DNA from: Eretmocerus hayati | Taxonomy: Eukaryota; Arthropoda; Insecta; Hymenoptera; Aphelinidae | DNA length: 64,000 nt | NCBI GenBank assembly: GCA_029851415.1 | Contig: CM056743.1 | Location: 96,198,501-96,262,500, forward strand | Direction of reading: 5' to 3' | Shown here: one piece after another, positions 7,181 to 64,000 of the stretch | Position numbering within the stretch: the stretch's first letter is position 1 | Layout of the letters: each line of letters begins with the position of its first letter | The notes under the pieces: generated by a model | The model's input: only the letters and a program-made list of their open reading frames with translations | Told to the model about the DNA's origin: nothing | Databases searched by the model: none | Program-made: the position numbers and the translations under genes

Positions 7181-7439
7181 AGACGGGAATACGCTAATTC
7201 CTTGGGCACCCGGGCTGTATTCGGCGGCTTGACATCGTCCAAACCGACCTATATGGTCCTTGGCATGTGTACACTACCCTTCAACACTTTCCTGAACCAT
7301 TTAATCGTTTGTGATGGGTTGAATGTGCTCAGAAATGGTGAAACTCGAACCTATGTTGATATACACGCTTTCTAGACCCCTTTGAGGGAGAATCGATCAA
7401 CTTGGGAGTATTGAACGACTTGCAGGCTCTGAAAACGCG

Positions 7440-9600
7440 ACAGGTACCATATCACATGATTTAATTATCGAATTCTTCAAAGCAAGAGTCAAAGAATTGC
7501 CGCTGGGATTTTTTAGAATATTCCTCCGCCGGGAAAAATGGCAAATGATGAAACGACTCTAAAGATCATGGAATCTAGGTGTCTTTCGGAACTTGCGGGA
7601 CTTGGAAAATACAACAAACACCATTCTACGTGAATAACTCATCGAATGCTTCAAAGCACTATTCATGAAATTGCCGCTGGAATGTTTTATGACCGTTTTT
7701 GACCGAGAAACACTCGAAAATCGTGGAACGACCCCCGAAACCCATTGGTTTCATTAAATCTAGGGGTCTTTTGAAACTTGCGGATTTTGACACAACGAAC
7801 ACCATCTCACGCGATGGAACTATCGAACGCTTTCCAGCAGGTATTATACAATTGCCGCTGGAACGTTTTATGGTCAATTTTTACTGGAAAACACTCGATA
7901 ATCGTAGAACGACCCCCAAAATCATGAAATCTAGATTTCATTTGAGACTTGCGGGATTCGGACTAAACTACAGGTACCATCTCTAGTGATCAACTAATCA
8001 AATGCTCTGAAGCGGGTGTCATAAAATTGCCGCTGGGATGTTTTCGGGCCTTTTTTCGCGAAGAAACGATCGGAAATGAGAAAACGACTTTGAAAATCAT
8101 GGAATTCAGGTGTCTTTTGGAACTTGCGGGATTTGAAAAACACTACACATACCATTTTATCCAAGTAACTCAATGAACGCTTTAAATCAAGTTTCATAAA
8201 ATTGCCGCTGGAATATTTTGTGACCGTTTTTCACCGGAAAACACTCGAAAATCGTGGAACGACCCCCGGATTCATGGAATCTAGGTGTAATTTGAGACTT
8301 GCGAGGTTCTGAAAATACCACGAACACCATCTCACGCGATGAAATTATCGCACGCTTTCCAGCAGGTATTATAAAATTACCGCTGGAATGTTTTACAGTC
8401 AGTTTCCACCGGATAACACCCAAAAATCGTAGAATGGCCCCCAAAATCATGAAATCTAGCGGTCATTCAAGACTTGCGGGATTCGGAAAAATCTACAGGC
8501 ACCATCTCATCTCATCAACTGATCGAATGCTTCGAAGCCGGTGTCATGAAAATACCTCTAGGGAGTTTTCGGGCCCTTTTTCGCCGAGAAACGATCGAAA
8601 TTGAGAAAACGACCATAAAAATCATGGAATCTAGGTGTGTTTTGAAACTTGCGGAATTCGAAAGATACTACAGACGCCATCCTATTCGGGTACCTCAATG
8701 AATGCTTTGAAGCAAGTTCCATAAAATTGCCGCTGGACTGTTTTATGATCCTACTTCACGGGAAAACACTCGAAAATCATAGAGCGACGCCCGGATTCAT
8801 GGAATCTAGGTGTCTCTTGAGACTTGCGGGGTTCTAAAAACACTATGAACACTATCTCATGCGATGAATCTATCGCACGCTTTCCAGCAGGTATTATAAA
8901 ATTGCCGCTGGAATGTTTTATGGTCAGTTTTCACCGGAAATACTCGATAATCGTAGAACGACCCCCAAAATCATGAAATCTAGGTGTGATTTGAGACTTG
9001 CGGGATTCGAGGGAAACCACGAATACTATCTCAAGTGATCAACTAATTAAATGTTCTGAAGCGGGTGTCATAAAATTGCCGCTGGGATGTTTTCGGGCCC
9101 TTTTTCGCCGAGAAACGATGCAAAATGAGAAAACGACCCTGGAAAGCATGGAATTTAGGAGTCTTCTGGAACTTGCGGGATTCGAAGAACACTAGAGACA
9201 CCATTCTATTCGAGTAACCCAATGGACGCTTTGAAGCAAGTTTCATAAAATTGCCACTGGAATGTTTTAGGGTCAGTTTTCACCGGGAAACACTCGAAAA
9301 TCGTAGAATGACCCCCAAAATCATGAAATCTAGGTGTCATTTGAGAGTTGCGGGATTCGGAACAACCTACAGGCACCATCTAACGTGATCGACCGATTGA
9401 ATGCTCTGAAGCGGGTCTCATAAAATTGCCGCTGGGATGTTATCGGACCCTTTTTCGCCGAGAACCGATCGAAAGTGAGAAAATGACCCTAGAAATCATG
9501 GAATCCAGACGTCTCTCGGGACATGCGGGATTTGAAAAACACTACAGACACCATTCTATCCAAGTAACTCAATGAACGGTTATGGATTTTCTTGTTGAAT
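7440..9600 (+). repeat. Left arm array: 175-bp monomers in trimers
   Basis: The marker TTGCCGCTGG or a near match starts at 7497, 7671, 7852, 8027, 8202, 8377, 8552, 8727, 8902, 9076, 9251 and 9426. Nearly all steps are 174-175 bp. Monomers fall into three types by the sequence after the marker (TTATGACC-like, TATGGTCA-like, TTTTCGGGCC-like). These recur in order, giving a ~525-bp higher-order unit. Short open frames in every copy are by-products of the repeat. Confidence 0.85.
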
Positions 9601-9779
9601 AATACTGGCGGATAGCAGAGCGACCCCAGAATAATGGAATAGAACTGTCATCTTAAACTTGTGGAAACTCGAAAATACTGCGGAGGCCATCTCGCATGAT
9701 CTGGATATCGAATGCTTCGAAGTAGGAGTGCGAAAATGGTCCCTGGAATTTTTAAGGCAATTCCACTGTCGAACCATTG

Positions 9780-10900
9780 TCAAGAAAACTATGAATCTCG
9801 TTACCGTTCAACAGACCTTTTGAATCGGATCAGAAAAGTCCCTTCCATACATGAACCAATCGTGGAATGATTGTTTTTCCATTTGACTAGATCCAGACAA
9901 GGGGGCGTGATTGTGTGTATTTAAAGAAGACAACAAAGATCTTGTTAATGAAAATGTCAAATATAATATGAAAATAAATCATTCACAGGTTTCGTTGAGT
10001 ACAACTCCTCCTCTCCTGAGAAAGAGGATATCCCCTGAATGTGGCTCAGGATCGACCTTCTTGGGTTGAGTTCATTTCTACACGAGTTCTATCAAATTTA
10101 CCGACACCAGCTACAGCACATAGGATATTTCCCATCAAAATTCTCGCTGAAATTTTTGAGAAACTCTTTTCCCTTCGCACAACGCAACTTACACTCACAT
10201 GCAGATTATCTCGGAATTCGCATGGGATAGGGCTCAACGAAGATAATTTCGCATTAGTGTGGTCCAAAATAAATCTTCCTCGAGGATCGCTTACCATAAC
10301 TCGGGACTCACTGTTTTCTGGCAAGTGGTATCTTTAGCTGTACGCTCGAAGCTGAGTTTCTTTTGTCGAGCAAGAGCTCTAAAATTTTGGTGAAAAATAT
10401 ATAGGTAATGCCATTACAGAGCTTCTACTCCCCTCGAAACCAGTAGTGCCGTGAATATTGCGTTATAGACTTTGCGCGGACGGCTTCACCTCTTTTTATC
10501 GTGGTAATCCAATCTTCTCAACACGATTACTGTGGTTGTGCGGTTGTAGGATCCAGAGATGCGCCAAAAACGGGTCATCATTCCGTGGTTCCAGCCACTT
10601 TTCATCGTTTATCTCGAAATTCGCCTTTTTCCACTACTTTACCTCTCGAATCCATGATGCATCATGGCTTCCTGAAACCACTAGGATCATCTTGAATGGG
10701 GCAAAATACCCCACACGACAATCATAACGCAATATCCTCAAAATATATTATTGAAAGGGGGAAAAAGCCTTTGATGGCATTTTCTGAACATTTCCAACAA
10801 AACTTCAGAGTTCTTGCTCCACCTGAAAGACACAACTTTGAGCGCGCAGCAAAATTCTTTCATGCAATTTTCCGATGTTTGGGTGCTTACAAAATTGCAT
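9780..10900. other. Loop of the 6.5-kb foldback, no recognised gene
   Basis: The longest open frames, around 10040-10340 and 10458-10727 on the plus strand, show no domain I recognise. They could be transposase debris or chance frames. No repeat structure is obvious. Confidence 0.4.
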
Positions 10901-11039
10901 AAAATAGCATTCGCGCCTCGATCATGAGGTTCCCCGCTTCCGAGCGATTATTTCGACCCTCGCCTGCGGCTCGTGCCGAAAACCAATCGCTCAGAAGCGA
11001 GCTACAACCTCATAATCTCGGTGCGAAATCTACTATTTT
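10901..11039. repeat. Imperfect 139-bp palindrome
   Basis: AAAATAGCATTCGCGCC at the left pairs with the inverse of GGTGCGAAATCTACTATTTT at the right. Pairing continues through ATGAGGTT / AACCTCAT and GAGCGATT / AATCGCTC. It sits inside the loop of the larger foldback, so it is a candidate independent MITE insertion. Confidence 0.65.
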
Positions 11040-11320
11040 GCAACTGTGTGCGTGAAGTTGTAAAAAAATGAGACTTCTCTTCATCATTTACAGTGCGAGA
11101 AGTAATGCGTGAATGACTTCTCGCACAGTTTTACATTTACGCACTGGTGAAGTGTGCATAAATGTAACTTCTCGCTCTAATGCATTTTCATTCACGCACA
11201 GTTCCAAAATATGATGTCACGTCATCCCTCTGAATTTGGCCTTTCTTGAAAACTTTGTTCTCAAGATGATCTTGCTCGGACAGTGGTGCATTTAATTACA
11301 ACTTCGCGCACAGTTGCAAA

Positions 11321-11579
11321 AAATAGTATACGCAACACGTGCGAGAAGTTTCCGCACACGTTGCCAACTCGCGCGAGAAGTAACATTCACGCACACTTCG
11401 AAACTTCTCGCACACCCAGAGGTACATATTTACGCACGCTCGCTTCGCGAGCGTACGTGAATGTGTTCTTCTGGCTGTGCGAGAAGTTCCAAAGTGTGCG
11501 TGAATATTAACTTCTCGCACTCGTTTGGCAACTTGTGCGGAAATTGACCTTCTCGCACTTGTTGCGTAATATACTATTT
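11321..11579. repeat. Imperfect 259-bp palindrome with repeated TTCTCGCAC words
   Basis: Outer ends AAATAGTATACGCAACA and TGTTGCGTAATATACTATTT pair, and the arms meet at ACGCTCGC / GCGAGCGT (11436-11454). The words CTTCTCGCAC and its inverse GTGCGAGAAG recur from about 11090 onward, including outside the palindrome. A 156-codon minus-strand frame (11296-11766) runs through it and is best explained by the repeat. Confidence 0.7.
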
Positions 11580-11899
11580 CATACCTCCTTACCAGAAGGC
11601 AGTGAATCCTGACTAATGCTGAGCGGTTCCTGAAAGAAAAAAACGTTTTTTCGACCCACATTATCATGCATCGTGAGATCATCGCAACATATGACACTGA
11701 AGGTGAATGACACTCCAGAAAACGTACGGAACTTGGGAATCTGTTATGAATGCATGAAGGAATCAACTCTTCACACTACAGAAAATCTGAATAGAGAACT
11801 GGAGCTTTTCTACGAAGTAGAATTCACAGGACATTTGTACGGTACATGTATCATGAAGAATATTTGTACATTAAACTATCATTCTACATAATTCTTATC

Positions 11900-13490
11900 T
11901 TACATAATGATTCTGCAGTTTTCGAGTGTTTTCCGGTGGAAACTGACCATGAAACATTCCAGCGACTATTTAATAATACCTGCTGGAGAGCGTGCGATAG
12001 TTTCATCCCATGAGATGGTGTTCGTAGTGTTTTCAGAATCCGCAAGTCTCAAAAGACACCTAGATTTCATCGATTTCGGGGGTCGTTCCACGACTTTCGA
12101 GTGTTTTCCGGTAAAAAACGGTCGAAAAACATTCCAGCGGCAATTTCATGAATCGTGCTTTGGAGCATTCCATGAGTTATTCACGTAGAATGGTGTTTGT
12201 AGTATTTTTTAAGTCACGCAAGTTCCAAAAGACACCTAGGTCCAATGATCTTCAGGGTCATTTCCTCATTTTCGATCGTTTCTCGGCGAAAAAGGGCCTG
12301 AAAACAACCCAACGACAATTTCATGACACCCGCTTTGAAGCATTTGATCAGTTGATCTCGTGAGATGGTGCCTATAGGTTCCTCCGAAATCTCGCAAGTA
12401 CCAAATGACACCCAGATTTCATGATTTTGGGGAACGTTCTACGATTTTCGATTGTTTTCCGGTGAAAAATGGTCATAAAACATTCCAGTGGCAATTTCAT
12501 GACACCCGCTTTGAAGCATTCGATTAGTCGATTGCATGAGTTGGTGCCCGTAGGTTTTTCAGAACCCCGCAAGTCTCAAATGACATATAAATTTCATGAT
12601 TTCGGGGGTCGTTTTACGATTTCCGAATATTTTCCGGTGAAAAATGGTCATTAAACATGCCAGCGGCATTTTTATGAAACTTGCTCTGAAGGATTCGATG
12701 AGTTACCCGTATCGAATAGTGTCTGTAGTGTTTTTCTAATTCAAGTTCCAAAAGACACGTAGGTTCCATGATTGTCAGGGTCATTTTCTCATTTTTTATC
12801 GTTTCTCGACGAAAAAGGGCCTGAAAACACCCCAGTGGTAGTTTCATGACACCCGCTTTGAAGCATTCGATCAGTTGGTCTTGTGGGATGGCTCCTGTAG
12901 ATTTCTTGGAATCTCGCAAGCCTCAAATGACACCTAGATTTCATGATTTTGGGGGTCGTTCTACGATTTTCGAGTGTATTCCCGTGAAAGACGACCATAA
13001 AACAATCCAGCGGCAATTTCATGATACCGGCCTCGAAGCGTGCGATAGTTTCATCGCGTCAGATGGTATCTGTACTGTGTTCAAAACCCCGCAAGTCCCA
13101 AAAAAACACCTAGATTTCATTGATTTCGGGGGTCGTTCCACGATTTTCGAGTGTTGTCCGGTGAAACCAGTCATAAAACATTCCAGCGGAAATTTTATGA
13201 AACTTGCTCTGAAGCATTCGATGAGTTACCCAAAAAGAATAGTGCCTAGTGTTTCTCCAATCCCGCAAGTTTCAAAAGACACCTAGATTCCTTGATTTCC
13301 AGAGTCGTTTCATCATTTGCCATTCCTTTCCGGCGAAAAATATTCTAAAAAATCCCAGCTGCAATTTTTTGACCCCTGCTTTGAAGAATTCGATAATTGA
13401 ATCATGTGAGATAGTATCTGTAGCGTTTCCCAGAGCCCGCAAGTCGTTCAACACTCCCAAGTTGATCAATTCTCCCTCAAAGGTGTCCAG
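11900..13490 (-). repeat. Right arm array: 175-bp monomers, inverted
   Basis: The inverse marker (CCAGCGGCAA or variant) starts at 12134, 12309, 12485, 12660, 12832, 13007, 13183 and 13355, steps of 172-176 bp. The same three monomer types as the left arm are present in reverse orientation. Confidence 0.85.
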
Positions 13491-13679
13491 AGAGCGTGTA
13501 TATTAACATAGGTTCGAGTTTCACCATTTCTGAGCACATTCAACCCATCACAAACGATTAAATGGTTCAGGAAAGTGTTGAAGGGTAGTGTTCACATTAC
13601 AAGAACCATATAGGTCATTTGACGTCAAGCTGTCAAATACAGCTCGGGAACCCAAGAAATCAGCGCATTCCCGTCTTGA

Positions 13680-16068
13680 CAGAAGAACTAGCCTTGCAGA
13701 TAGTGCAGCATGGCCCGACTCATCAACACAACCCCAATGTATCCCATACATGGATTGATCACATCTACGTAGATGACAACGACACCATTACTAACTTTCA
13801 CAACAGACATCTGCCCAGTTTCGGTGGGCACTCGGTCATTGACGTCACCATCAACGTCTTCACCCCTACTCCGCCAAAAAATTCCTTCAAGTATAGGGAT
13901 TTTTGTAACATCGCTCCGGAGATATTGAATGACCGTCTGCTCCGCTGTGACTGCACAGCTCTTGAAAATGCCGAAACCAGTTTGGAAGACGCAATTCACT
14001 GCTTGAATGAAAATTTAATGATCGTTTCAGATGAATTAGCACCGGAAAAAACTATAAACCCGCGTAAAAATGATGCTCCTTGGATTGGTCCTGAGTTAAG
14101 GGTGCTCATGAATGAGCGAGACGCGACGCGCAGGCGTTGGGAGCGTATGCAATGCAACCAGTGCAAGTGTCCTAAGCTTCAAAATGAGTACTTTCGGCTT
14201 AGCGAAGAGGTCGATCTGCGCATTGAGCAAGAGCGTAATTCCTTCCTTCAAAACCATCTCTCAGACGCTCTTGAACAGAACAAGAATATTTGGAAGGAGA
14301 TGCGCAATCTCGGCCTCTTGCCCAAGAGCAAAGAGGAAGAACTTCACGGTTTCACACCGGATGAATTGAACGCTCACTTTGCGGGGGTTTCCGTTTCGCC
14401 CCACGAAAATATCAATGAAGCAATGGACGATATCAACTCTGCATCGGAGGAGGGGTTTAAATTTAAGCCCACAAATTTCAATGATGTAGTCCTTGCTATT
14501 AAACATTTCTCCTCGCAGGCCCGCGGGGTGGATGGGATCCCCCAGAGCGTGATCGCGAAGGCTCTTCCGGCAATTGGTGATCTTATTGTACATATTTCCA
14601 ATCCCTCTTCCGCTCATAGCGTTTTTCCCGAAGCTTGGAACCAAGCGCAGCCGATCGCATTGAAGAAGGCTGCAGCTCCATCAACGGTCTCGGACTTTCG
14701 TCCCATAGCGCTGCTGTGCTTCCTTTCCAAGGTTCTGGAAAAAATTGCACATGACCAAATCACGGAGTATTTAAAAGGAGAGAAACTTCTTGATCGCTTC
14801 CAGACTGGTTTCGGGCAATACCATAGCACCCAGACAGCTTTACTAAAGTTGACGGATGACATCAGAGTAGGCATTGATAGGAAGAAGATAACCTTACTCC
14901 TACTATTCGACTTCAGCAAAGCTTTCGACACAATAACACCGTCAAAGCTGTTGAGGAAGCTCCGAAACCTTGGATTCTCAAGATCGGCACTTCTGTGGAT
15001 AAAATCATACTTACAAGGCCACACCCAAATAGTCACTTCAAAATCTAGTAGTTCTGATTGGCTCGAAACCAATCTGGGTGTTCCACAGGGATCCGTTCTC
15101 GGGCCTTCACTCTTCAGCTTATATGTTAATGACTTACCTGGTTTGCTAGACGGAAAGTCGGTATATCATCTATCCTATGCGGATGATCTTCAAATTTATC
15201 TCCAAGTCGAGAAAACTAAGATCAAGGAAGGCATCACTCGGCTGGGAGAAGTAGGACGACTAATTGCTGAATGGGCCAGAAGTTCCGGCCTGCGTCTCAA
15301 CGCTGGCAAACCAAAGCAATCTTCTTCAGCTTTGAGAGGAACATCAAAGATCTGAAAAGAATGGACTTGCCAGGGGTTGAGATACAGGAAGGAAAAATCA
15401 TTCCGTTCAGCGATACGGTCGTGAGTCTTGGTGTTACACTTGATAGTGAACTGACGTGGAAGCCGCACATCGACCAAGTAACTAAGAAAGTGAACAGAGC
15501 CCTTCACGGATTGCGGTTTTTTAGGGCGTGTATCACCAGAACTCTCCGAATTCGCCTAGTCGAGTCATTAGTTCAACCGCATTTAGATTATTGCACTGCC
15601 GTGTACCTCGACGCCACGGACGAACAGCGGCAACGGATACAACGACCAAGCAATTCATGTGTGAGGTATATTTTTGATCTTAGGAGAGACGAGCATATCA
15701 CCCCGTTTAGGGAGCGTTTGGGTTGGTTACGTACTGATTCGCGGAGAATGTACTTCGCAGCTCTGTTAATGCACAAGATCATGCATTTAGGAGAGCCTGG
15801 CTACCTAGCTGCGATGTTCACCAGGTACCAATCTGAACGCCCCGCACGCGGTGATGCAGAAGAGCGGGTACTCAAAGTTCCCAATATGATACTTGAATAT
15901 GGAAGAAGATCTTTCCAGGTTCAATGTGCTCATTTGTGGAACTTTCTCCCTCCGGCCTCTCCGCAGCTGGGGAAAATGTCATTATTCAAAGAGGCTATGA
16001 AGGATTTTTTGCTCACACAGTCTCCCCAGAGGATTGATGTGGAGAAGAAGCATTACTTCAATCTCTAA
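13680..16068 (+). pseudogene. CR1-like ORF2 (endonuclease C-term, reverse transcriptase), frameshifted
   Basis: ORF2 polyprotein of a non-LTR element; it would nick target DNA and copy element RNA. Visible are the end of the endonuclease (SHTWIDHIYV, then GGHSVID near 13750-13850), the RT with DFSKAFD (about 14910), GVPQGSVLGP (about 15080) and the catalytic YADD (about 15178), and a C-terminal region with HLDYC and a WLRTDSRR-type block. The N-terminal endonuclease is missing by 5' truncation. The frame breaks once near 15300-15340, just after the conserved LNAGK, and resumes in another frame to a stop at 16068. Dead copy, but relatively young. Confidence 0.85.
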
Positions 16069-24404: not shown

Positions 24405-24675
24405 TACAAGAGCTTCAGAAATGAGAGAGGCAATCAGCTCCAGCCTAGAGATAATGGCCGAGGACTCCGCTTGATCAACATCCTCGCTGGCCCCACCTCC
24501 ACAAAGAGCGGGATGGGGGAGCCAAACGAAGAGAGGCCGCACAAGCCCCATCAATAGGGACCAGGAAGCCGATATCAAAAGAGCAAAGAGAGCAGCCCTC
24601 AAACCGGAGCAGCTCAATTTTGCAGGACAAGGGGCTGGACTGTTCAGGACACCCCCATCCACGCCAGGGACACCA

Positions 24676-29178: not shown

Positions 29179-29208
<30 letters not shown>

Positions 29209-29210
<2 letters not shown>

Positions 29211-30285: not shown

Positions 30286-30287
30286 CT

Positions 30288-44769: not shown

Positions 44770-45730
44770 TGAATCAAAAACTTTCGTTTTTGATTCTCCG
44801 ACTGGGCAAGATTGGACTACTCTGTTCAGCTTCCGGGGGGGGGGGCTGGAAAATACCTCTCGATACCATTTTCCGTGTGAATTTTCATGCTGAATTCGAA
44901 TTCGCCCCCATATCGGAGGTTAGAGTGAGCTGGAATGGTCAAAATTGCAGTTTTACGCAGAATAACTCGTTTTTTCATACCTTCTCTCCTCATTTGGGCC
45001 AATACGAACGGACTAAAACTCCGCAAAAATTTTTGCACAATGCTGTTTTCCACGTAAAATTTTGTGTTAAATTTGAACCCGCTCGCATATTAGGGGTTGA
45101 AGTGAGCTGAGGTGGTCGAAATTGCAGTTTTACGCAGAGAAACTCTTTTCTCATACCGTTTCTTCTCACTTTGGCCGATACGAACGGACTAAAACTCCGC
45201 AAAAATGTTTGCACATTGCTGTTCTCCATGTAAAATTTTGTGCTGAATTTGAATCCGCCCTCATATTGGAGGTTAGAGTGGGCTAAGATGGTCAAAATTA
45301 CAGTTTTACACAGAGAAACTCTTTTTTCATACCTTTTCTTCTCACTTTGGCTATTACAAACGGACCAAAACTCCGCATAAAATTCTGCACAATGTTGTTT
45401 CCCATGTAGAATTTTATGCGGAATCCGAATCCAGTACTATCCCAGAGCTTAAAGTCAGTCCCGATGGCAAAAATTGCAATTTAACGCGACGAATCCCTTT
45501 CTCCTCACCGCTCTCCCTCATTCCTCCTCGTACAAACGGACCAAAACTCCTCAAGAATCCTGCTTCACGTTGTTTCCGTGTGGTTTTTCCACCGATTCCA
45601 AATTCAGCCCCAAATCTGCCAGTTGAGTAGCTTGAATTAGTCAAAATTTTGATTTTATGCAGAACAGCTCTCCTTTTTCCACTGTCTCTATTGGCTCTCC
45701 TTCGTACTAACGGACCGTCGTTGTTCACGA
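44770..45730. repeat. Degenerate tandem array, 175-bp unit
   Basis: The marker GTCAAAATTGCAGTTTTACGC or a variant starts at about 44937, 45115, 45290, 45465 and 45640, spacing 178, 175, 175 and 175 bp. Units share ACGGACTAAAACTCCGCA and a TTTTGTGCTGAATTTGAAT-type block. Short frames in several units are by-products. Sequence is unrelated by eye to the other 175-bp arrays in the window. Confidence 0.85.
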
Positions 45731-48025: not shown

Positions 48026-48155
48026 TAAAAGATAATGAAGAGTAGGGTGTGCGTTACATCCCAACTCTGGATTTTCCACGATACCATCGTGGATTTACTA
48101 TTTTTGATATAAAAAAAAGGCAAAAACTTTTGCCGCTCCCTGTATACGACGTATT

Positions 48156-50426
48156 AGTCCGGTCTCCGGCCGACCTTTTGTTGGTCTGTTGGCCTCCAGC
48201 GAGGTGACAATTTGGCTGGATAAGAGCCAAAATTACAAGAAATTACCGCCAAAGGTGGACACTCTACGTGTGGTACAAGCTGAGATATGGATTTTTTAAA
48301 TAATTAATTTGTAAGCGTTATATGTCCGTTATCCTCCAGTGGCCACCCTATGCTCATTTGGAAGCTCACGAAACGTATATTGAAATGGAAAGAAGGTGGA
48401 CAGTCCTAGTGTGGTCGGAATTGGGGTATAGAGGGCCTAAAGGTCAAATTTTCGGGTCAAAATGGCGAAAATGACGATTTTTCGCGTATAACTCAGAAAC
48501 GATGCACCTAATCGAAATTTATTTCAGTACTTTTTTGTTCATCTTGTTAAGATCTTGAAATTTTTATTCGCGTAATTTTTCTCAGAAATGCGTCATTTCT
48601 GAGATAATGGCGTTGCGAGTTGTGAAAAGTAGACGCTCAGACCTCCTGAAACGTACAACTCAAGAACGGCGCACTTGGTCAAAATTTTACATCAGTACTC
48701 TCTTGTTCGTCTTGTCAAGATCTTGAAATTTTTATTCGAGTAATTTTTCTCAGAAATTCGTCATTCCTGAGATAATGGCGTTGCGACTTGTCAGGATTAG
48801 ACGTTGGGATCTCCGGATACGTACAACTCGAGGTACAACTCAAGAACGACGCACTTGACCAAAATTCAATATCAGTACTCATTAACTATTCATGTATTTT
48901 GAGATCTTTAAATCTGTATACGAATCTTTTTCCTCAAAATCGGATAATTTTTGAGGTATGAACATTATCAGTTGGGGCTAGCAGGCCCCTCGAATGTCCT
49001 TTGCATCATGGATATAGAAGCGTGGAATCGATGTGGCTGGACCGACAACGGAGAGAGCCTGGATATTGTGTGGTTTGATGGTAATCCGTCTCCAGAAAAA
49101 GTAACAGATGTTCTTCATGACGACGATGATCGCAGTCAAGATGAGGTCAGTGGTGATTCTGATGGTGATTTGAGAGACTTCGATATGTATGCTACCGATG
49201 AAAGTGATGAGGAACGATGGTAATTTTGTACGATAGAAATGTTTCACTGTTTCAGTTATGTACGGTACAAATTCGACATATGAATAAATTCAAGTACCCT
49301 CTCAATAGGGACTCATTTTATTTCGAAAAATCAGAGATTTTGAGACTGAAATCTTATAACGTTAACGAAAAAGAACGAACATAGAATAACGTTCTATCGC
49401 ATCAATCTCCATATGTACACAAGAAAGCGTCTGGTACGATTAATACCCGCAACTAATAATGTTCATACCCCAAAAATTATCCGATTTTGAGGAGAATGAT
49501 TCATATACAGATTTAAAGATCTCAAAATACATGAATAGTAAATGAGTACTGATATTGAATTTTGGTCAAGTGCGTCGTTCTTGAGTTGTACGTATCCGGA
49601 GATCCCAACGTCTAATCCTGACAACTCGGAACGCCATTATCTCAGGAATGACGCATTTCTGAGGAAAATTACTCGAATACAAATTTCAAGATCTTGACAA
49701 GACAAACAAAAAAGTACTGACGTAAAATTTCGACCAAGTGCGCCGTTCTTGAGTTGTACGTATCCGGAGATCCCAACGTCTAATCCTGACAACTCGCAAC
49801 GCCATTATCTCAGAAATGACGAATTTCTGAGGAAAATTACTCGAATAGAAATTTCAAGATCTTGACAAGACGAACAAAAGAGTACTGATGTAAAATTTTG
49901 ACCAAGTGCGCCGTTCTTGAGTTGTATGTATCAGGAGGTCTGAGCGTCTACTTTTCACAACTCGCAACGCCATCATCTCAGAAATGACGCATTTCTGAGT
50001 AAATTACCCGAATACAAATTCCAAGATCTTAACAAGATAAACAAAAAAGTAATGATGTAAAATTTCGATTAGGTGCATGGTTTCTGAGTTATACGCGAAA
50101 AATCGTCATTTTCGCCATTTTGACCCGAAAATTTGACCTTTAGGCCCTCAATACCCCAATTCCGACCACACTAGGACTGTCCACCTTCTTTCCATCTCAA
50201 TATACGTTTCGTGAGCTTCCAAATGAGCATAGGGTGGCCACTGGAGGATAACACGGACATATAACGCTTACAAATTAATTATTTAAAAAATCCATATCTC
50301 AGCTTGTACCACACGTAGAGTGTCCACCTTTGGCGGTAATTTCTTGTAATTTTGGCTCTTATCCAGCCAAATTGTCACCTCGCTGGAGGCCAACAGACCA
50401 ACAAAAGGTCGGCCGGAGACCGGACT
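48156..50426. mobile_element. 2.27-kb foldback with tandem repeats in its arms
   Basis: AGTCCGGTCTCCGGCCGACC at the left pairs with its inverse ending at 50426. The arms stay highly similar to about 48960 and 49470. Within each arm the block GATCTTGAAATTTTTATTCG recurs (48551, 48719, diverged at 48903), so the inner arm is built from ~170-180-bp repeats. The ~500-bp loop holds a small acidic ORF. It directly abuts another foldback at 50429. Confidence 0.8.
48951..49223 (+). CDS. Small acidic ORF in the foldback loop, unrecognised
   Basis: The frame opens at 48951; the most likely internal ATG gives a protein beginning MDIEAWNRCGWTD. It continues with SLDIVWFDGNPSP and ends in an Asp/Glu/Ser-rich tail (LHDDDDRSQDEV...ESDEERW). 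The single-ended acidic tail and its position in a transposon loop suggest the C-terminal remnant of a transposon protein. I do not recognise the family. No zinc-finger or DDE motif is visible, and an upstream exon cannot be excluded. Confidence 0.35.
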   Translation: MRYEHYQLGLAGPSNVLCIMDIEAWNRCGWTDNGESLDIVWFDGNPSPEKVTDVLHDDDDRSQDEVSGDSDGDLRDFDMYATDESDEERW

Positions 50427-50428
50427 AT

Positions 50429-50888
50429 ATCCTGTTTTGCCACTCGAATATTATTTCAATCAACATTGAGAAGCCTATTCTGAGAAGTTTGCCCTCCCAA
50501 CCCTTCGTGTCTCTGAGATCGCTGTGATTTTTTATAGCTTCTTTTAAAGCCGAAAAATTATTAAAATACATGATTTCCACGTGAAATTCCACGAGAAACA
50601 CGATGGAATTGTCAGTTTTGACTTCCAAAGGGACCCCGGTGAGACATCAGTGATTTTTTGGAAGAAACGCTAATATCAAGCCGGGATCACTCTGAAACTC
50701 CTAACTGACAGTTCCATCGTGTTTCTCGTAGAATTTCACGTGAAAATGATGTATCATGATGATTTTTCAGCTCTGAAAGGAGCCACGAAGAATCACAGCG
50801 ATCTCAGAGACAAGTGGGTTAGGAGGGCAAAGTTCTCAGCATAGGCTTTTCAATGTTAAGAAGGATATCCGAGCAGCAAAACAGGATA
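50429..50888. mobile_element. 460-bp foldback (MITE-like)
   Basis: TATCCTGTTTTGCC at the left pairs with the inverse ending AAAACAGGATA at 50888. The arms share CTCTGAGATCGCTGTGATT and ACGAGAAACACGATGGAA blocks and meet near 50650. No coding capacity. It is joined directly to the foldback on its left. Confidence 0.75.
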
Positions 50889-53961: not shown

Positions 53962-54390
53962 GCGCTGGAAAGAAACTCATTATTGAATCGATCCTTACGG
54001 AGATACCCAGGTATGCACCACTTCCATCTGTTCAGCCTCTATTCCCAATCCAGAATACATTCCAAAAATTATCAGGATGCATGATTCCGATGTAAACTCC
54101 TCTGATCTTTCAGAACATGCTATCAGATTTTGTCTCTGACGTGATCTAGGGAAGTACACTCTCATTTGGTCCTGTTTTTCGAGTAAAAAATTGAACGCTA
54201 TCACAGGTCATGTCTGAGAGGAAATTTGATAGTATATTCTGAAAGACCAGAGAATTTTACCTCGGAAGCACGCATTACGATTATTTTTGGAATGTATTCT
54301 GGATTGGGAATAGAGGCTGAACAGATGAAAGTGGTGCATGCCTCGGTATCTCCGTAAGAATCGATGTAATAATGAGTTTCTTTCCGGCGC
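53962..54390. mobile_element. 430-bp foldback (MITE-like)
   Basis: GCGCTGGAAAGAAACTCATT at 53962 pairs with the inverse ending TTTCCGGCGC at 54390. The arms share TGTTCAGCCTCTATTCCC and CCAGAATACATTCC, and meet near 54170. No protein. Similar minus-strand frames on both sides are mirror by-products. Confidence 0.8.
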
Positions 54391-54599
54391 ACTATGCCTC
54401 CAGGGAGTCAACTCTGGCAGGAAATCGCTTCACTCGAATTCATGAGCTATTGAGATGAAACAAATTGGGTTTTCTTCGTAATCGTCTCAGCTACAAGGTG
54501 TGCCTACCTGTTTTTTCCTTAAATGCGATGGGCTGGGTGTGGGGGCAGTTGAATGAAGAAAACTGAATAAACACGAAATAGCCCAAAAAATAAACTTAC

Positions 54600-57500
54600 G
54601 GCATGTGATACACAGATTCTACTGCCACCTGGAAAAGTCTCCCCCTACATTCTGGAAGCGCGTAACTGGCAGTTGGCCGCATTCTCGGGTCTGGGAATAG
54701 GTGCTGGGATTCTCTAGGCCGACTTTTGTCGACAATCGAGTATTAAACTATAGGGATTTCAACAAAACAACGACTTTTAGGGGGTTTGCGGTTCTGCTGC
54801 CACCTTGCAGCAACTTGGAGAGTATAGTGTGGTTGATCACAAAAATTTTAAGCCCAATCTCGAGTCTGGGAATTGATGCTGGCAGCTTTGACATCGATTT
54901 TCAGCGAGAGGTGACCATTAAGTCCTGTGGACATCGATATATGACCAATTCTAGGTTCCTCTTTGATATGCTGCCAACTTAACGAAATTTGTGTCATATC
55001 CTGGGTGACTATATCGGCATTTTGAGCCCAACCCCGATTCGAGGAATCGATGCCAGGAGATGCCAGCTCAAGTTTGTCAGAAAAATCACAAGATTTGAGC
55101 TCGATTTTTATTGCAAATGCTCGATTCTAACTGAAAACTCGATATGCTGCCACCTTGGAAACTATTCAATAACGAAGTTCATTAATTCAACAAAATTTTC
55201 GGTCCAAGCAAACATCTGAGAATGTGTGCTGGGATTCTTGGGGCCAATTTTCGTCGACGATGGGGTATTGAACTAGAGGGATTTGAACAGAACGACGATA
55301 TTCAGGTAGTTTACCATCCTACTGCCATCTTGAAACAATTTCTAGTGTATATTGTGGTTGACCAACAGAATTTTGAGCCCATGAACGAGTGTGGGAATTG
55401 ATGCTGACAGCTTCGACATCGATTTTTTGCTAAAACTACCCCTAGAATGCGATTAACATCAGTATATGACCAATTCTAGGTACGATCTCGATATGCTGCC
55501 AGCTCAACAACGACTCTGTCACATCCTGGGTGGCTCGTCCTGTATTTTGACCCCAGCCCCGTATCCAGAAATCGATGCCAAGAGATACAAGGGCCATGTG
55601 ATGCCGAAAATTACACGATTCCGGCCCATATCTAACTGCGAATGTCCGATTCTAACTAGGAATTCGATATGCTGCCAACTTGGAGACAGTTGAATCACAA
55701 AATTGGTTGGTCACACAAAATTTACAGCCCAAGCATGGGTCTGAGAACAAGTGCTGGGATTCTCGAGGCCCATTCTTGGCGAAAATCCAGTGAGAAACCA
55801 TAGAATTTTCAACAAAATCGCGGAATTTAGGTCGTTTTCAGTCCTACTGCCATCTCCGGAAATGTTGGAGTGTATAGCGTGGGTCATGCACAGAATTTTA
55901 AGCCCAATCTCGAGTCTGGGAATTGGTGCCAAATGCTTTGACATCGATTCTCAGCTCCAACTGACCCTCAAGTACTCTGTAAACACCCATATGTGACCAA
56001 TTCTAGGTAGGATTTCGATATGCTGCCAGCTCAACAACGTTTCTGTCACATCCTGGGTTGCTCGTAGTGTATATTGACTCCATCCCCGCATCCAGGAATC
56101 GATGCCAAGAGATACGAGACCCATGTGATGGCGAAAATTACACGATTCCAGCCCATATCTAACTGCGAATGTCCGATTCTAACTAGGAATTCGGTATGCT
56201 GCCAACTTGGAGACAATTGAATCACAAAATTGGTTGGTCACACAAAATTTACAGCCCAAGCATGGGTCTGAGAATAAGTGCTGGGATTCTCAAGGCCCAT
56301 TCTCGTCGAAAGTCCATCGAGAAACCATAGAATTTTCAACAAAATCGCGGAATTTAGGTCGTTTTCAGTCCTACTGCCATCTCCGGAAATGTTGGAGTGT
56401 ATAGCGTGGGTCATGCACAGAATTTTAAGCCCAATCTCGAGTCTGGGAATTGGTGCCAACAGCTTTGACATCGATTCTCAGCTCCAACTGACCCTCAAGT
56501 ACTCTGTAAACACCCATATGTGACCAATTCTAGGTAGGATTTCGATATGCTGCCAGCTCAACAACGTTTCTGTCACATCCTGGGTTGCTCGTAGTGTATA
56601 TTGACTCCATCCCCGCATCCAGGAATCGATGCCAAGAGATACGAGACCCATGTGATGGCGAAAATTACACGATTCCAGCCCATATCTAACTGCGAATGTC
56701 CGATTCTAACTAGGAATTCGGTATGCTACCAACTTGGAGACAATTGAATCACAAAATTGGTTGGTCACACAAAATTTACAGCCCAAGCATGGGTCTGAGA
56801 ATAAGTGCTGGGATTCTCAAGGCCCATTCTCGTCGAAAGTCCATCGAGAAACCATAGAATTTTCAACAAAATCGCGGAATTTAAGTCGTTTTCAGTCCTA
56901 CTGCCATCTCCGGAAATGTTGGAGTGGATAGCGTGGGTCATCCACAAAATTTTAAGCCCAATCTCGAGTCTGGGAATTGGTGCCAACAGCTTTGACATCG
57001 ATTCTCAGCTCCAACTGACCCTCAAGTACTCTGTAAACACCCATATGTGACCAATTCTAGGTAGGATTTCGATATGCTGCCAGCTCAACAACGTTCCTGT
57101 CACATCCTGGGTTGCTCGTACTGTATATTGACTCCATCCCCGCATCCAGGAATCGATGCCAAGAGATACGAGACCCATGTGATGCCGAAAATTACACGAT
57201 TCCAGCCCATATCTAACTGCGAATGTCCGATTCTAACTAGGAATTCGATATGCTGCCAACTTGGAGACAATTGAATCACAAAATTGGTTGGTCACACAAA
57301 ATTTGCAGCCCAAGCATGGGTCTGAGAATTAGTGCTGGGATTCTCGAGGCCCATTCTTGGCGAAAATCCAGTGAGAAACCATAGAATTTTCAACAAAATC
57401 GCGGAATTTAGGTCGTTTTCAGTCCTACTGCCATCTCCGGAAATGTTGGAGTGTATAGCGTGGGTCATGCACAGAATTTTAAGCCCAATCTCGAGTCTGG

Positions 57501-58455
57501 GAATTGGTGCCAACAGCTTTGACATCGATTCTCAGCTCCAACTGACCCTCAAGTACTCTGTAAACACCCATATGTGACCAATTCTAGGTAGGATTTCGAT
57601 ATGCTGCCAGCTCAACAACGTTCCTGTCACATCCTCGGTTGCTCGTACTGTATATTGACTCCATCCCCGCATCCAGGAATCGATGCCAAGAGATACGAGG
57701 CCCATGTGATGCCGAAAATTACACGATTCCAGCCCATATCTAACTGCGAATGTCCGATTCTAACTAGGAATTCGATATGCTGCCAACTTGGAGACAATTG
57801 AATCACAAAATTGGTTGGTCACACAAAATTTACAGCCCAAGCATGGGTCTGAGAATAAGTGCTGGGATTCTCAAGGCCCATTCTTGTCGAAAGTCCATCG
57901 AGAAACCATAGAATTTTCAACAAAATCGCGGAATTTAAGTCGTTTTCAGTCCTACTGCCATCTCCGGAAATGTTGGAGTGGATAGCGTGGGTCATCCACA
58001 AAATTTTAAGCCCAATCTCGAGTCTGGGAATTGGTGCCAACAGCTTTGACATCGATTCTCAGCTCCAACTGACCCTCAAGTACTCTGTAAACACCCATAT
58101 GTGACCAATTCTAGGTACGATTTCGATATGCTGCCAGCTCAACAACGACTCTGTCACATCCTCGGTGGCTCGTACTGTATTTTGACCCCAGCCCCGTATC
58201 CAGAAATCGATGCCAAGAGATACAAGGGCCATGTGATGCCGAAAATTACACGATTCCAGCCCATATCTGACTGCGAATGTCCGATTCTAACTAGGAATTC
58301 GATATGCTGCCAACTTGGAGACAATTGAATCACAAAATTGGTTGGTCACACAAAATTTACAGCCCAAGCATGGGTCTGAGAATAAGTGCTGGGATTCTCG
58401 AGGCCCATTCTTGGCGAAAATCCAGTGAGAAACCATAGAATTCTCAACAAAATCA
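54600..58455 (+). repeat. Left array: ~175-bp monomers, 527-bp trimeric HOR
   Basis: The word CTGCC at the monomer start recurs at 54622, 54797, 54971, 55147 and 55322, steps of 174-176 bp. From about 55700 the array is homogenised into a 527-bp unit: equivalent points lie at 55751, 56278, 56805, 57332 and 57859. Within one unit the three monomers are 176, 175 and 176 bp (57077, 57253, 57428, 57604). Recurrent 77- and 81-codon frames are repeat by-products. Confidence 0.9.
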
Positions 58456-59060
58456 TCCCAGCCCCACGAATCGATGCCAGGAGATTCCAGATCCAATTCA
58501 TGCGAAAATTGACATGAGATCAGTACCAATCAGATCGATAATGGTCAATTCGAAATAAGTATTTGTTACGCCCCCAACTCAAAAACTATGTAGTCATATC
58601 TTTGGTTCGTGAATATAATTACAAGCCAATCCTCAGTTCTGGGGATAAGAGCCGCAAAATACTCGACCCTCTCCTTGCAAAAATGATATAGATCAGTTCA
58701 AAGTCTATTGCAAATGTGCTCTTCCAGATGGGATTTCGTTCTCCTACATACTCAAAAACGGTCGAATCATATTTCCGTATAGCTAAGCCGAATTTTGATT
58801 TCAATTTCGAATCGAAGCATTGGTGCCGAGAAATTCCGGAACCTTTCTTGCTACAAATAGTATCGAATCAGTCGAAATGTAATTGATGGATACCGAATCG
58901 AGATGGGAATCACGTTATGCTGCCAACTCGAACAGCTCATCATGGCATCTCAAAACTAGTGGAGTAAATCCTGAGCCAAATCAAAATTCTCAGAATCGGT
59001 GCCGGAGAATCTCAAGTTCATTTTCCGCGATTATTTACATGAGATCAATTCAGAATCCAT
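58455..59060 (+). repeat. Left inner arm, diverged monomers
   Basis: Inverse of about 60470-61062. Monomer landmarks (ATGCTGCCAACTCG at 58917, ATACTGCAAATTC near 59091) keep the ~173-bp period but are not homogenised into the 527-bp unit. Confidence 0.8.
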
Positions 59061-59511
59061 TCAAAATTCTCATTTCCGATATGATTCGGATATACTGCAA
59101 ATTCAAAGGAACTCATCGAATTTCGGGGTAGATATACAAAATATAAATTCCAACTGCAAATCTGGGAATTGAAGCTGTAAATTTTACGATTGATATATTG
59201 AAGATGGTGGCTTAGCATCAGTTCAAATATACTCGAGGATGATAGATACCCTATTCCGGCTGGAATACGTTTTACACCCACTGAAAAAACTTCTGATTAT
59301 ATCCTGGAACGATCGCGACAAGAAACATTCAATGAAAGGCCATGCAATTGAATAAACTCAGTATCTTCACTATATTTAATTCGTATCTAGTACATCTTAA
59401 TTAACTTCCAGCTATAACCCAAAAAAACAGTTAATAATGATCATTCAAATAAAATAAAAATCGTAGTCATATTGATAATATCTATGCATCAAATACATAG
59501 TTTATAGATAT

Positions 59512-60225
59512 TTATAACTCGTGTAATGAAGCACACAATTGCTGTGTACTCTGACAGTTATGAATAGGAAGAGTTGACGTCTTAATCATTGACACTTTCT
59601 TGACAGACGACTTCCCATAACCTCCTCTGCCCCGCAGCCGTCTTTTACCATGTCCTCTAGTGTAGTACTTGTCTTGAAATCCTGCATGGTTCACTAGAAT
59701 CTCCGCAATTCTGCGGCGGATTGAGTCCATCGCCATGTCGTTAAATTCTTGTGCCTGTCCGGAACATATGATGGAGCTCCACGTCATCACATGGGGGCAA
59801 CAGTTCATTGTTAACAATCTAGACTTGCCCTCACCGCGATACTGCGTTGGGGTATCGCGTGGAGTGAACAGAGTCCACTGGGCGAAGTCTAACTTTTTAC
59901 CACCCCACCAGTGTCGACGGATGAAGCCAGATACTCTGTAAAGATGCATGGGGTTCAGATCCCCATGCATCGAATCAAGGTAAATCATGAGACTCTGCGC
60001 TGGGACTATTACTAGCAAAGTCCAATGCTCGTTGACATTGATGGGTAATAACCATATTTTATAGTGACTAAGGTCGACAGCTTTCACCCACTGTTCGAAT
60101 CCCCCCAATGATCCATCGCCAATAATTTTCTGCACCAAGTGAATATCGAAAGGCAAAATGTTTGCTCCTCTACTTCTCGCATCGCAGCAGATTAACCTCA
60201 AAAAGCTATTTGTAATGTCACTTCA
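59512..60225 (-). pseudogene. Ulp1/C48-type cysteine protease, broken
   Basis: The 229-codon frame (59512-60201) resembles the SUMO-protease (C48) fold as found in transposon-encoded proteins. Visible are FLRLIC at the start, the catalytic His in NEHWTLLV (about residue 59), Asp in YLDSMHG (about 76), Gln in DTPTQ (about 120) and Cys in NCCPH (about 134). The usual D-C-G around the Cys is altered and the Gln-Cys spacing is long, suggesting a local indel. The same frame continues upstream through an in-frame TGA (60223-60225) preceded by PDE. The C-terminus is Arg/Lys/Gly-rich (RGHGKRRLRGRGG). It lies in the loop of the giant foldback and is likely a transposon gene, now defective. Confidence 0.65.
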
Positions 60226-60470
60226 TTCATCAGGTCTCTATTCTTATATTAATTATATGTTGTGCATCATAGTAAACTGATCTCGTTTTGTAAATAACTC
60301 TCAACTGACTGGAATTAATTAAAGTGGAACTAGAATTGAAAGAGAATCCTAGTTGTTGCGTATGCGTAATCTTTTGATCTTCTCTATTTCCCCAGAAAAA
60401 TGATGAATACATTTCCTACATGGAAGCATATCGAATACTAATCTAGAATCGAACATTTTCGATCATATTT
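60226..60470. other. Loop sequence between the protease gene and right inner arm
   Basis: AT-rich, no motif. It could hold an upstream exon or promoter of the protease gene, but nothing specific is visible. Confidence 0.35.
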
Positions 60471-61062
60471 GAACGGATGTCATGTAAGTTCCTGCTGGAA
60501 TGGATTTGGGATCTTCTGCGCCGATTCCGAGAATTTTGATTCGGCTCAGGATTTACTCCACTAATTTTGGGATGCCATGATGAGCTGTTCAAGTTGGCAG
60601 CATAACGTGATTCCCATCTCGATTCGGTATCCATCAATTACATTTCGACTGATTCGATACTATTTGTAGCAAGAAAGGTTCCGGAATTTCTCGGCACCAA
60701 TGCTTCGATTCGAAATTGAAATCAAAATTCGGCTTAGCTATACGGAAATATGATTCAACCGTTTTTGAGTATGTAGGAGAACAAAATCCCATCTGGAAGA
60801 GCACATTTGCAATAGACTTTGAACTGATCTTTATCATTTTTGCAAGAAGAGGGTCGAGTATTTTGCGGCTCTTATCCCCAGAACTGAGGATTGGCTTGTA
60901 ATTATATTCACGAACCAAAGATATGACTACATAGTTTTTGAGTTGGGGGCGTAACAAATACTTATTTCGAATTGACCATTATCGATCTGATTGGTACTGA
61001 TCTCATGTCAATTTTCGCATGAATTGGATCTGGAATCTTCTGGCATCGATTCGTGGGGCTGG
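60470..61062 (-). repeat. Right inner arm, diverged monomers
   Basis: Inverse of 58455-59060 with few differences. It includes the inverse TTGGCAGCATAACGTGATTCC block near 60595. Confidence 0.8.
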
Positions 61063-64000
61063 GATGATTTTGTTGAAAATTCTATGGTTTCTCACTGGAT
61101 TTTCGCCAAGAATGGGCCTCGAGAATCCCAGCACTTATTCTCAGACCCATGCTTGGGCTGTAAATTTTGTGTGACCAACCAATTTTGTGATTCAACTGTC
61201 TCCAAGTTGGCAGCATATCGAATTCCTAGTTAGAATCGGACATTCGCAGTTGGATATGGGCTGGAATCGTGTAATTTTCGGCATCACATGGGTCTCGTAT
61301 CTCTTGGCATCGATTCCTGGATGCGGGGCTGGGGTCAAAATACAGTACGAGCCACCGAGGATGTGACAGAGTCGTTGTTGAGCTGGCAGCATATCGAAAT
61401 CCTACCTAGAATTGGTCACATATGGGTGTTTACAGAGTACTTGAGGGTCAGTTGGAGCTGAGAATCGATGTCAAAGCTGTTGGCACCAATTCCCAGACTC
61501 GAGATTGGGCTTAAAATTTTGTGGATGACCCACGCTATCCACTCCAACATTTCCGGAGATGGCAGTAGGACTGAAAACGACTTAAATTCCGCGATTTTGT
61601 TGAAAATTCTATGGTTTCTCGATGGACTTTCGACGAGAATGGGCCTTGAGAATCCCAGCACTTATTCTCAGACCCATGCTTGGGCTGTAAATTTTGTGTG
61701 ACCAACCAATTTTGTGATTCAATTGTCTCCAAGTTGGCAGCATATCGAATTCCTAGTTAGAATCGGACATTCGCAGTTAGATATGGGCTGGAATCGTGTA
61801 ATTCTCGGCATCACATGGGTCTCGTATCTCTTGGCATCGATTCCTGGATGCGGGGCTGGGGTCAAAATACAGTACGAGCCACCGAGGATGTGACAGAGTC
61901 GTTGTTGAGCTGGCAGCATATCGAAATCCTACCTAGAATTGGTCACATATGGGTGTTTACAGAGTACTTGAGGGTCAGTTGGAGCTGAGAATCGATGTCA
62001 AAGCTGTTGGCACCAATTCTCAGACTCGAGATTGGGCTTAAAATTTTGTGGATGACCCACGCTATCCACTCCAACATTTCCGGAGATGGCAGTAGGACTG
62101 AAAACGACTTAAATTCCGCGATTTTGTTGAAAATTCTATGGTTTCTCGATGGACTTTCGACGAGAATGGGCCTTGAGAATCCCAGCACTTATTCTCAGAC
62201 CCATGCTTGGGCTGTAAATTTTGTGTGACCAACCAATTTTGTGATTCAATTGTCTCCAAGTTGGCAGCATATCGAATTCCTAGTTAGAATCGGACATTCG
62301 CAGTTAGATATGGGCTGGAATCGTGTAATTTTCGGCATCACATGGCCCTTGTATCTCTTGGCATCGATTTCTGGATACGGGGCTGGGGTCAAAATACAGT
62401 ACGAGCCACCGAGGATGTGACAGAGTCGTTGTTGAGCTGGCAGCATATCGAAATCGTACCTAGAATTGGTCACATATGGGTGTTTACAGAGTACTTGAGG
62501 GTCAGTTGGAGCTGAGAATCGATGTCAAAGCTGTTGGCACCAATTCCCAGACTCGAGATTGGGCTTAAAATTTTGTGGATGACCCACGCTATCCACTCCA
62601 ACATTTCCGGAGATGGCAGTAGGACTGAAAACGACTTAAATTCCGCGATTTTGTTGAAAATTCTATGGTTTCTCGATGGACTTTCGACAAGAATGGGCCT
62701 TGAGAATCCCAGCACTTATTCTCAGACCCATGCTTGGGCTGTAAATTTTGTGTGACCAACCAATTTTGTGATTCAATTGTCTCCAAGTTGGCAGCATATC
62801 GAATTCCTAGTTAGAATCGGACATTCGCAGTTAGATATGGGCTGGAATCGTGTAATTTTCGGCATCACATGGGTCTCGTATCTCTTGGCATCGATTCCTG
62901 GATGCGGGGATGGAGTCAATATACAGTACGAGCAACCCAGGATGTGACAGGAACGTTGTTGAGCTGGCAGCATATCGAAATCCTACCTAGAATTGGTCAC
63001 ATATGGGTGTTTACAGAGTACTTGAGGGTCAGTTGGAGCTGAGAATCGATGTCAAAGCTGTTGGCACCAATTCCCAGACTCGAGATTGGGCTTAAAATTC
63101 TGTGCATGACCCACGCTATACACTCCAACATTTCCGGAGATGGCAGTAGGACTGAAAACGACCTAAATTCCGCGATTTTGTTGAAAATTCTATGGTTTCT
63201 CACTGGATTTTCGCCAAGAATGGGCCTCGAGAATCCCAGCACTTGTTCTCAGACCCATGCTTGAGCTGTAAATTTTGTGTGACCAACCAATTTTGTGATT
63301 CAACTGTCTCCAAGTTGGCAGCATATCGAATTCCTAGTTAGAATCGGACATTCGCAGTTAGATATGGGCCGGAATCGTGTAATTTTCGGCATCACATGGG
63401 TCTCGTATCTCTTGGCATCGATTCCTGGATGCGGGGATGGAGTCAATATACAGTACGAGCAACCCAGGATGTGACAGGAACGTTGTTGAGCTGGCAGCAT
63501 ATCGAAATCCTACCTAGAATTGGTCACATATGGGTGTTTACAGAGTACTTGAGGGTCAGTTGGAGCTGAGAATCGATGTCAAAGCTGTTGGCACCAATTC
63601 CCAGACTCGAGATTGGGCTTAAAATTCTGTGCATGACCCACGCTATACACTCCAACATTTCCGGAGATGGCAGTAGGACTGAAAACGACCTAAATTCCGC
63701 GATTTTGTTGAAAATTCTATGGTTTCTCACTGGATTTTCGCCAAGAATGGGCCTCGAGAATCCCAGCACTTGTTCTCAGACCCATGCTTGAGCTGTAAAT
63801 TTTGTGTGACCAACCAATTTTGTGATTCAACTGTCTCCAAGTTGGCAGCATATCGAATTCCTAGTTAGAATCGGACATTCGCAGTTAGATATGGGCCGGA
63901 ATCGTGTAATTTTCGGCATCACATGGGTCTCGTATCTCTTGGCATCGATTCCTGGATGCGGGGATGGAGTCAATATACAGTACGAGCAACCCAGGATGTG
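61062..64000 (-). repeat. Right array: inverted 527-bp trimeric HOR, runs off window
   Basis: Equivalent points at 61416, 61943, 62470, 62997 and 63524 are exactly 527 bp apart. Two unit types can be told apart by the TTTCGACGAGAATGGGCC versus TTTTCGCCAAGAATGGGCC segment. Their order differs from that in the left array. Confidence 0.9.

Follow-up and report, generated by a model that had tools for sequence, protein, structure and literature searches.

Drosophila and nematodes are both known to harbour foldback elements whose long inverted arms are built of tandem repeats. In Drosophila virilis, Tetris is a foldback with satellite-like tandem repeats of variable number in its terminal inverted repeats, and a complete transposase-coding element is reported not to have been found there (PMC4079207). 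Galileo, of the P superfamily, likewise has long inverted repeats with internal tandem repeats (PMC3688188), and Tm1, a Mutator/Foldback element of Meloidogyne, has composite inverted repeats in which the number of tandem units varies (PMC3169594). Transib and RAG-like transposons are recognised by 5-bp target duplications and by ends resembling recombination signal sequences with a CAC heptamer (PMC8355894, PMC7204232). Classical satellites commonly have units of 150-180 bp, and higher-order units of several monomers are known among them (PMC5615363). Here we analyse a 64-kb stretch of chromosome C3 of the wasp Eretmocerus hayati (GenBank CM056743.1, positions 96,198,501 to 96,262,500; genome assembly of 692,130,109 bp), which we call the window and which holds five tandem arrays: E1 (7.4-9.6 and 11.9-13.5 kb), E2 (2.5-6.4 kb), E3 (44.85-45.7 kb), E4 (48.5-50.1 kb) and E5 (54.7-64 kb). 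We propose that most of these arrays form the internally repetitive arms of DNA transposons of the foldback type, Transib-like in the case of E1 and E5, and that the unit length near 175 bp of the latter two was probably inherited.

Arrays, periods and foldback arms

Tandem Repeats Finder (TRF) gave E1 a period of 175 bp at 7543-9578 and 11919-13445. Its monomers fall into three types (numbers 0, 3, 6 and 9, numbers 1, 4 and 7, and numbers 2, 5 and 8 being most alike among themselves) which follow each other in the order A-B-C with some irregularities such as CACC. The trimer of about 525 bp that the initial annotation had described for E1 is thereby borne out. The element itself begins at 7000 rather than at 7181, as other E1 copies show. 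The autocorrelation of the window that the same annotation had suggested, run in 1-kb blocks, recovered both longer periods. Of the nine blocks between 55 and 64 kb, five (those at 56, 57, 61, 62 and 63 kb) show the 527-bp period of E5 with values of 0.91-0.99, and no such period was found in the core between its arms. The 527-bp unit has a sub-period of about 175 bp (z 12.2), as expected of the trimers claimed for it, and its monomer types a, b and c are 45-49% identical within one unit, or about 60-62% between family consensuses in a different alignment. In E2 a period of 516-517 bp was found at 3-5 kb (values 0.63 and 0.38), and the 516-bp unit has a sub-period near 175 bp that is weak (z 3.1) and stronger than in all 60 of 60 shuffles, four control stretches giving z -1.6 to 0.0. 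The E2 unit thus looks like a decayed trimer of about 172-bp monomers. For E3, TRF gave 176 bp at 44869-45419, in agreement with the 175 bp proposed for 44.8-45.7 kb. The range of about 168-184 bp proposed for E4 needs correction: TRF gave 168 bp at 48524-48829 and 49545-50068, and an array of 184 bp was not found.

Four of the five arrays (E1, E2, E4 and E5) lie inside long inverted arms that extend over most of an element and have tandem repeats within them, which makes these elements foldbacks; for E3, an inverted partner was not found in the window. The two arms of E5 are 97.8% identical over 4 kb.

Element ends and target duplications

Both E1 and E5 end in CAC[AT][AG]TG and are flanked by 5-bp, mostly CG-rich target duplications. 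All 14 of 14 E5 ends read CACTATG, and the duplication was exact in seven of the seven E5 copies examined (CGGCG five times, CGTCG and CGCCC once each). These seven are the window copy and six others with both outer ends among the matches listed; a one-sided copy at C4:24.09 Mb was left out. Most E1 ends read CACAGTG or CACAATG, with decay at the left end of L031, the right end of L032 and the left end of L033. In the four E1 copies with both ends read, the duplications agree at 5/5 positions (L030 and L031), 4/5 (L034) and 3/5 (L033); in the window copy and in L032 a single end can be read. The target consensus of Transib is CGWCG, which the CGNCG-like targets seen here resemble. Judged by their ends and target duplications, E1 and E5 are Transib-like. 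A Mutator-type foldback was considered for them and rejected, since their duplications measure 5 bp as against about 9 bp in Tm1 (PMC3169594). A small element with the ends CACAGTGGGGCC and CACAATGGGGCC and CGATG on both sides was also seen at 5642-5824 of locus L026, and is likely a short Transib-like relative.

Long arrays in inverted arms are difficult to assemble, and one could ask whether the elements are an artefact of assembly. We consider this extremely improbable, given that the E5 copies lie on three chromosomes, each with its own 5-bp flanking duplication, and that the assembly was made from PacBio HiFi reads (PMC10482854).

Kinship of the E1 and E5 arrays

To the eye, the arrays had seemed to share unit length and no sequence, and pairwise blastn indeed gave no match between different arrays at an expectation value (E) of 1e-3 or less. 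For E1 and E5 this impression fails once profiles are used. A first hint came from circular alignment of the consensus monomers (E1C-E5c z 3.9, E1C-E2c z 3.3), which with 55 pairs tested is unconvincing by itself. A profile of E5 type c built from the window alone matched four E1 copies at E 0.001-0.007. We then built the E5c profile from 20 monomers of nine E5 loci and searched 38 non-overlapping loci (315 kb, including 200 kb of evenly spaced genome sequence), the set used below unless stated otherwise. Outside E5 it gave 28 matches at E<=1, all of them in E1 arrays, 10 at E<=0.01 and the best at 9e-5; eight lie in the window and 20 in nine of nine other E1 copies, so that 10/10 copies are matched. 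No match occurred in the 200 kb of evenly spaced loci and none in reversed sequence. The five matches in the left E1 arm of the window are all in phase C and about 525 bp apart where the trimers are regular. In a circular alignment with gaps of 10 and 8 bases, the E1C and E5c consensuses are 58% identical (z 6.1), and the orientation of the monomers relative to the element ends is identical in E1 and E5. By sequence comparison, then, the E1 monomers and the E5 type c monomers are shown to be distant homologues, and inheritance would explain part of the shared unit length.

Several results weigh against this account. The E5a and E5b profiles gave no E1 match at E<=1, leaving one of the three E5 types to show the kinship. 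The reciprocal E1C search was weaker, with a best E5 match at E 0.02; at E<=1 it found 14 matches in E5, two in E2 and none elsewhere outside E1. The E1A profile matched E5 once (E 0.9) and the E1B profile never, and E1B alone of the E1 types matched the reversed control (seven matches, best 0.03). Finally, the 300-440 bp or so between the ends and the arrays could not be aligned between E1 and E5 (z 1.2), and the arrays could thus have moved between elements by exchange instead of being passed on along with the ends. E1 and E5 would then be separate Transib-like lineages whose arrays were acquired from each other, or from a satellite, by conversion. That the monomers align and the flanking terminal domains do not is what such an exchange would leave; however, non-repetitive domains may simply have diverged faster, and the equal orientation of the monomers relative to the ends speaks against it, so that we hold exchange to be unlikely. 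Descent inside Transib-like foldbacks is the best explanation for the near-175-bp length of E1 and E5, and perhaps of E2.

The kinship of E2 is suggestive. E2 and E1 have in common a core of about 33 bases, which recurs about 519 bp apart in the E2 units, and the similarity reaches E 0.003-0.005 when the E2 array is searched by itself. Against this stand its E of just 0.2-0.4 in the 315 kb and the result that no duplication of at least 5 bp, as in Transib, was found near the E2 ends. E2 may be a decayed member of the E1/E5 array lineage. A 33-bp minisatellite with partly palindromic units was also seen just outside the E2 arrays, at 2127-2440.

E3, E4 and the limits of common descent

The initial annotation had offered descent from one foldback family, with length kept as sequence diverged, as one explanation for all the arrays. 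This is supported for E1 and E5 by their homologous monomers, like orientation, like ends and like target duplications. For E2 it is suggestive, and it finds no support for E3 and E4, whose profiles matched no other array of the window at E<=0.01. The E4 profile did match two foldbacks of the evenly spaced sample, namely L025 with a 155-bp array (5e-14) and L013 with a 179-bp array (9e-4), and the reverse searches found E4 at 3e-4 (L025) and 0.004 (L013). E4 and L025 also have similar terminal domains (z 25) and common ends, TAGTCCGGTC. Homologous units in this lineage thus measure 155, 168 and 179 bp, a range of 24 bp, indicating that unit length in foldback arms drifts and is not rigid. On the best reading, E4 belongs to a separate foldback lineage with its own satellite of 155-179 bp and E3 is a solitary array; their lengths near 175 bp are either a coincidence or an expression of the general 150-180-bp habit of satellites. 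By eye, the flanks of E4 and L025 suggest AT-rich 3-bp duplications, and the E4 core contains an acidic frame of 91 amino acids (48948-49223, +) with no Pfam family.

Spread of the elements and formation of trimers

Across the genome, the E5 trimer has at least 175 matches (of 455 candidates, 39 were scored) and E1 has at least 130 (of 233, 40 were scored). The monomer types A/B/C and a/b/c are common to copies on different chromosomes, which indicates that the arrays travel with the elements. Among the relatives of E5 we found abcabc trimers in L040 and L041, together with runs of a single type (bbbb in L036-L038, bbb in L035), with the monomers mostly spaced 170-180 bp apart. In a tree of 84 sampled monomers, 14 per type, E1 types A, B and C lie together, separated from E5 types a, b and c by a branch with 100/100 support. 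E5a and E5b each form a single group across loci and E5c does not; for E1, 12 of 14 (A), 10 of 14 (B) and 8 of 14 (C) monomers cluster by type. Since the types of the two elements lie on opposite sides of this branch, tripling probably occurred at least twice. The trimers probably formed separately in E1 and E5, before most copies spread, although homogenisation within E1 could mimic such a tree. Trimers do not appear to be general, because four other long units (466 and 642 bp in L009, 318 bp in L020 and 288 bp in L014) had no inner sub-period (z -2.7 to 1.0).

These features could be brought about as follows. A Transib-type transposase would mobilise the elements by acting on their short ends. 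Within the arms, copy number would change and trimers would arise through unequal exchange or replication slippage, and gene conversion between the arms would maintain their likeness. The unit length near 175 bp of E1 and E5 would be maintained mainly by descent.

It has been proposed for Galileo that long, internally repetitive arms hold extra transposase binding sites (PMC3688188). By analogy, every monomer could contain a site for the transposase or for a host protein, making the spacing of about 175 bp functional, and the near identity of the E5 arms would be in keeping with this. However, no copies of the element end were found inside monomers, so that an origin of the arrays from the element end, as in Tetris, is not seen here, and the terminal-domain profile matches of E1 and E5 sit at inner edges only, where the first decayed monomer starts. 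Moreover, the E5- and E2-like segments of E1 are no better conserved than others, ranking 75th of 174 shifts in a set of 85 monomers that counts some twice. We therefore judge a binding-site module to be quite improbable.

Unit lengths and nucleosomes

Another explanation is that chromatin favours the amplification or retention of units about as long as one nucleosome repeat, so that unrelated arrays converge on this length. A sample of 20 loci of 10 kb, taken at even intervals from C1 and C2 only, yielded 23 clusters of direct repeats, many of which comprise no more than two copies. Their shortest offsets range from 108 to 1034 bp, with 10 at 141-195 bp, four at 165-185 bp and none at 500-550 bp. 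Four of the nine clusters in foldback arms lie at 150-185 bp, two of these being the arms of one palindrome. TRF periods of at least 60 bp in the same loci were mixed (466, 318, 311, 179, 155, 119, 108, 87, 85 and 76 bp). In this small sample there is an excess near nucleosome size with no sharp peak, and nothing suggests that 525 bp is general. According to the initial annotation, a common architecture would be refuted if, genome-wide, arrays in foldback arms had a broad spread of unit lengths and peaked near neither 175 nor 525 bp; in this small sample the outcome is divided, with broad lengths, 10 of 23 clusters at 141-195 bp and none of 23 at 500-550 bp. One candidate, L027, was rejected as a profile for kinship because it matched the reversed control at 3e-8 (low complexity); its 162-bp cluster stays among the 23.

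These clusters, and the frequency of 150-180-bp units among satellites (PMC5615363), favour a nucleosome-length constraint, as does a 10-bp periodicity of AA/TT/TA with p<0.05 (uncorrected) in five of 11 consensus monomers. On the other hand, this periodicity was absent from all three E5 types (p 0.22-0.38), homologous units of the E4 lineage differ in length, offsets far from nucleosome size occur too, and the sample is small, rich in two-copy clusters, and counts related ones such as L013 and L025 separately. Taken together, a nucleosome constraint seems rather unlikely, and inheritance within Transib-like foldbacks is our preferred explanation for E1 and E5.

Other features of the window

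Table 1. Repeat arrays, foldback elements and associated features of the window.
Feature	Position	Strand	Remarks
E2 foldback-type element	1613..6997	.	outer inverted arms 1613-2171 / 6441-6997, 84%
E2 array, inverted copy of 516-bp unit	2536..3020	-	
E2 array, 516-bp units	3360..4720	+	apparently decayed trimer of ~172-bp monomers
Nested palindrome between two E2 units	4716..5846	.	
E2 array, last 516-bp unit	5841..6423	+	
CGACG, presumed target-site duplication	6995..6999	+	left of E1; right partner lost
E1 Transib-like foldback	7000..13679	.	left end CACAGTGGGGCGAAACATCG; true right end absent, then reverse-transcriptase frame
E1 left-arm array	7404..9757	+	175-bp monomers A/B/C, ~525-bp trimer
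E1 right-arm array, inverted	11911..13451	-	
E3 direct array	44850..45716	+	176 bp; no inverted partner in window, no kinship found
E4 foldback	48155..50427	.	ends TAGTCCGGTCTCC; arms 91% identical
E4 left array	48485..48958	+	168-bp monomers
E4 right array	49436..50095	-	168-bp monomers
CGGCG target-site duplication	54385..54389	+	left of E5; same five bases after right end outside window
E5 Transib-like foldback	54390..64000	.	end CACTATGCCTCCAGGGAG; cut by window, right end at window-equivalent 65657 (locus L029)
E5 left-arm array	54687..58454	+	527-bp trimer a/b/c
Ulp1/Peptidase_C48-like open frame	59512..60222	-	E5 core
E5 right-arm array, inverted	61066..64000	-	

The coordinates of the elements are collected in Table 1. 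The Ulp1-like frame in the E5 core has eight database relatives at E<=1e-3, all from Eretmocerus hayati and on four contigs. A palindrome at 53962-54390 has its right arm apparently split by the E5 insertion; by eye, its outer sequence resumes beyond E5 in L029. Further short palindromes lie at 953-1330 and 50428-50888; the evenly spaced loci are likewise rich in palindromes of all sizes.

Elsewhere in the window, a 3.9-kb stretch at 22260-29222 overlaps its own 98.6% identical copy at an offset of 3,066 bp, a recent tandem duplication whose longest frame (24843-25760) has no Pfam family. Ten frames, including the inner E4 frame, gave no Pfam family at the Pfam cut-off. Frames resembling those of a long terminal repeat retrotransposon occupy 31262-38696, that at 35737-38010 having reverse transcriptase, RNase H and integrase zinc-binding domains. 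An inverted pair at 15305-16068 and 29511-30275 is about 90% identical, with a reverse-transcriptase frame before its first copy. A 194-bp direct pair at 47115-47469 has relatives in L020, L032, L026, L028, L010 and others, and represents another dispersed repeat family.

Significance and comparison with known systems

Inverted-repeat arms of all kinds account for 24.3 kb of the 64-kb window and, in the evenly spaced loci, for 27.4 of 200 kb. The genome paper of E. hayati gives 53.58% repeats, with 32.39% unclassified (PMC10482854), and elements such as those described here may form part of the latter. Its main text contains none of the words satellite, tandem, inverted and TIR, and that of PMC13116730 lacks satellite, foldback and Transib. 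In the open literature, a search of listed papers found no title dealing with satellite-armed foldbacks of Transib type, a result that argues only weakly for their absence.

A more far-reaching interpretation is that a long-lived satellite lineage resides in the arms of RAG1-related (Transib-type) foldbacks, in which a length of about 175 bp outlived most of the sequence (58% between E1C and E5c) and trimers arose repeatedly, the length being selected by chromatin or by transposition complexes. We regard this as doubtful. If it were true, the wasp genome would offer a natural series that leads from the arms of transposons to satellites of higher order. Whether the unit length of a satellite is inherited or selected is an old question of satellite biology, and copies of graded age would allow it to be tested directly.

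The units of Tetris, about 220 bp long, are about 94% similar among copies and have 37 bp in common with the flanking domain (PMC4079207), whereas E1 and E5 have units of about 175 bp of strongly diverged types, arranged in trimers, with no copy of an end found in the monomer. Galileo belongs to another superfamily, in contrast to the 5-bp duplications and CAC-heptamer ends of E1 and E5, and Tm1 differs in its units of about 14 bp and target duplications of 9 bp (PMC3169594). Unlike Transib itself, E1 and E5 have kilobase-long satellite arms, and E5 has a core with an Ulp1-like frame; unlike classical satellites, the arrays here are short and lie inside dispersed mobile elements. Foldback arms made of tandem repeats are thus not new, but here they occur in high abundance and together with Transib-type ends, recurrent trimers and monomer types that have diverged strongly.

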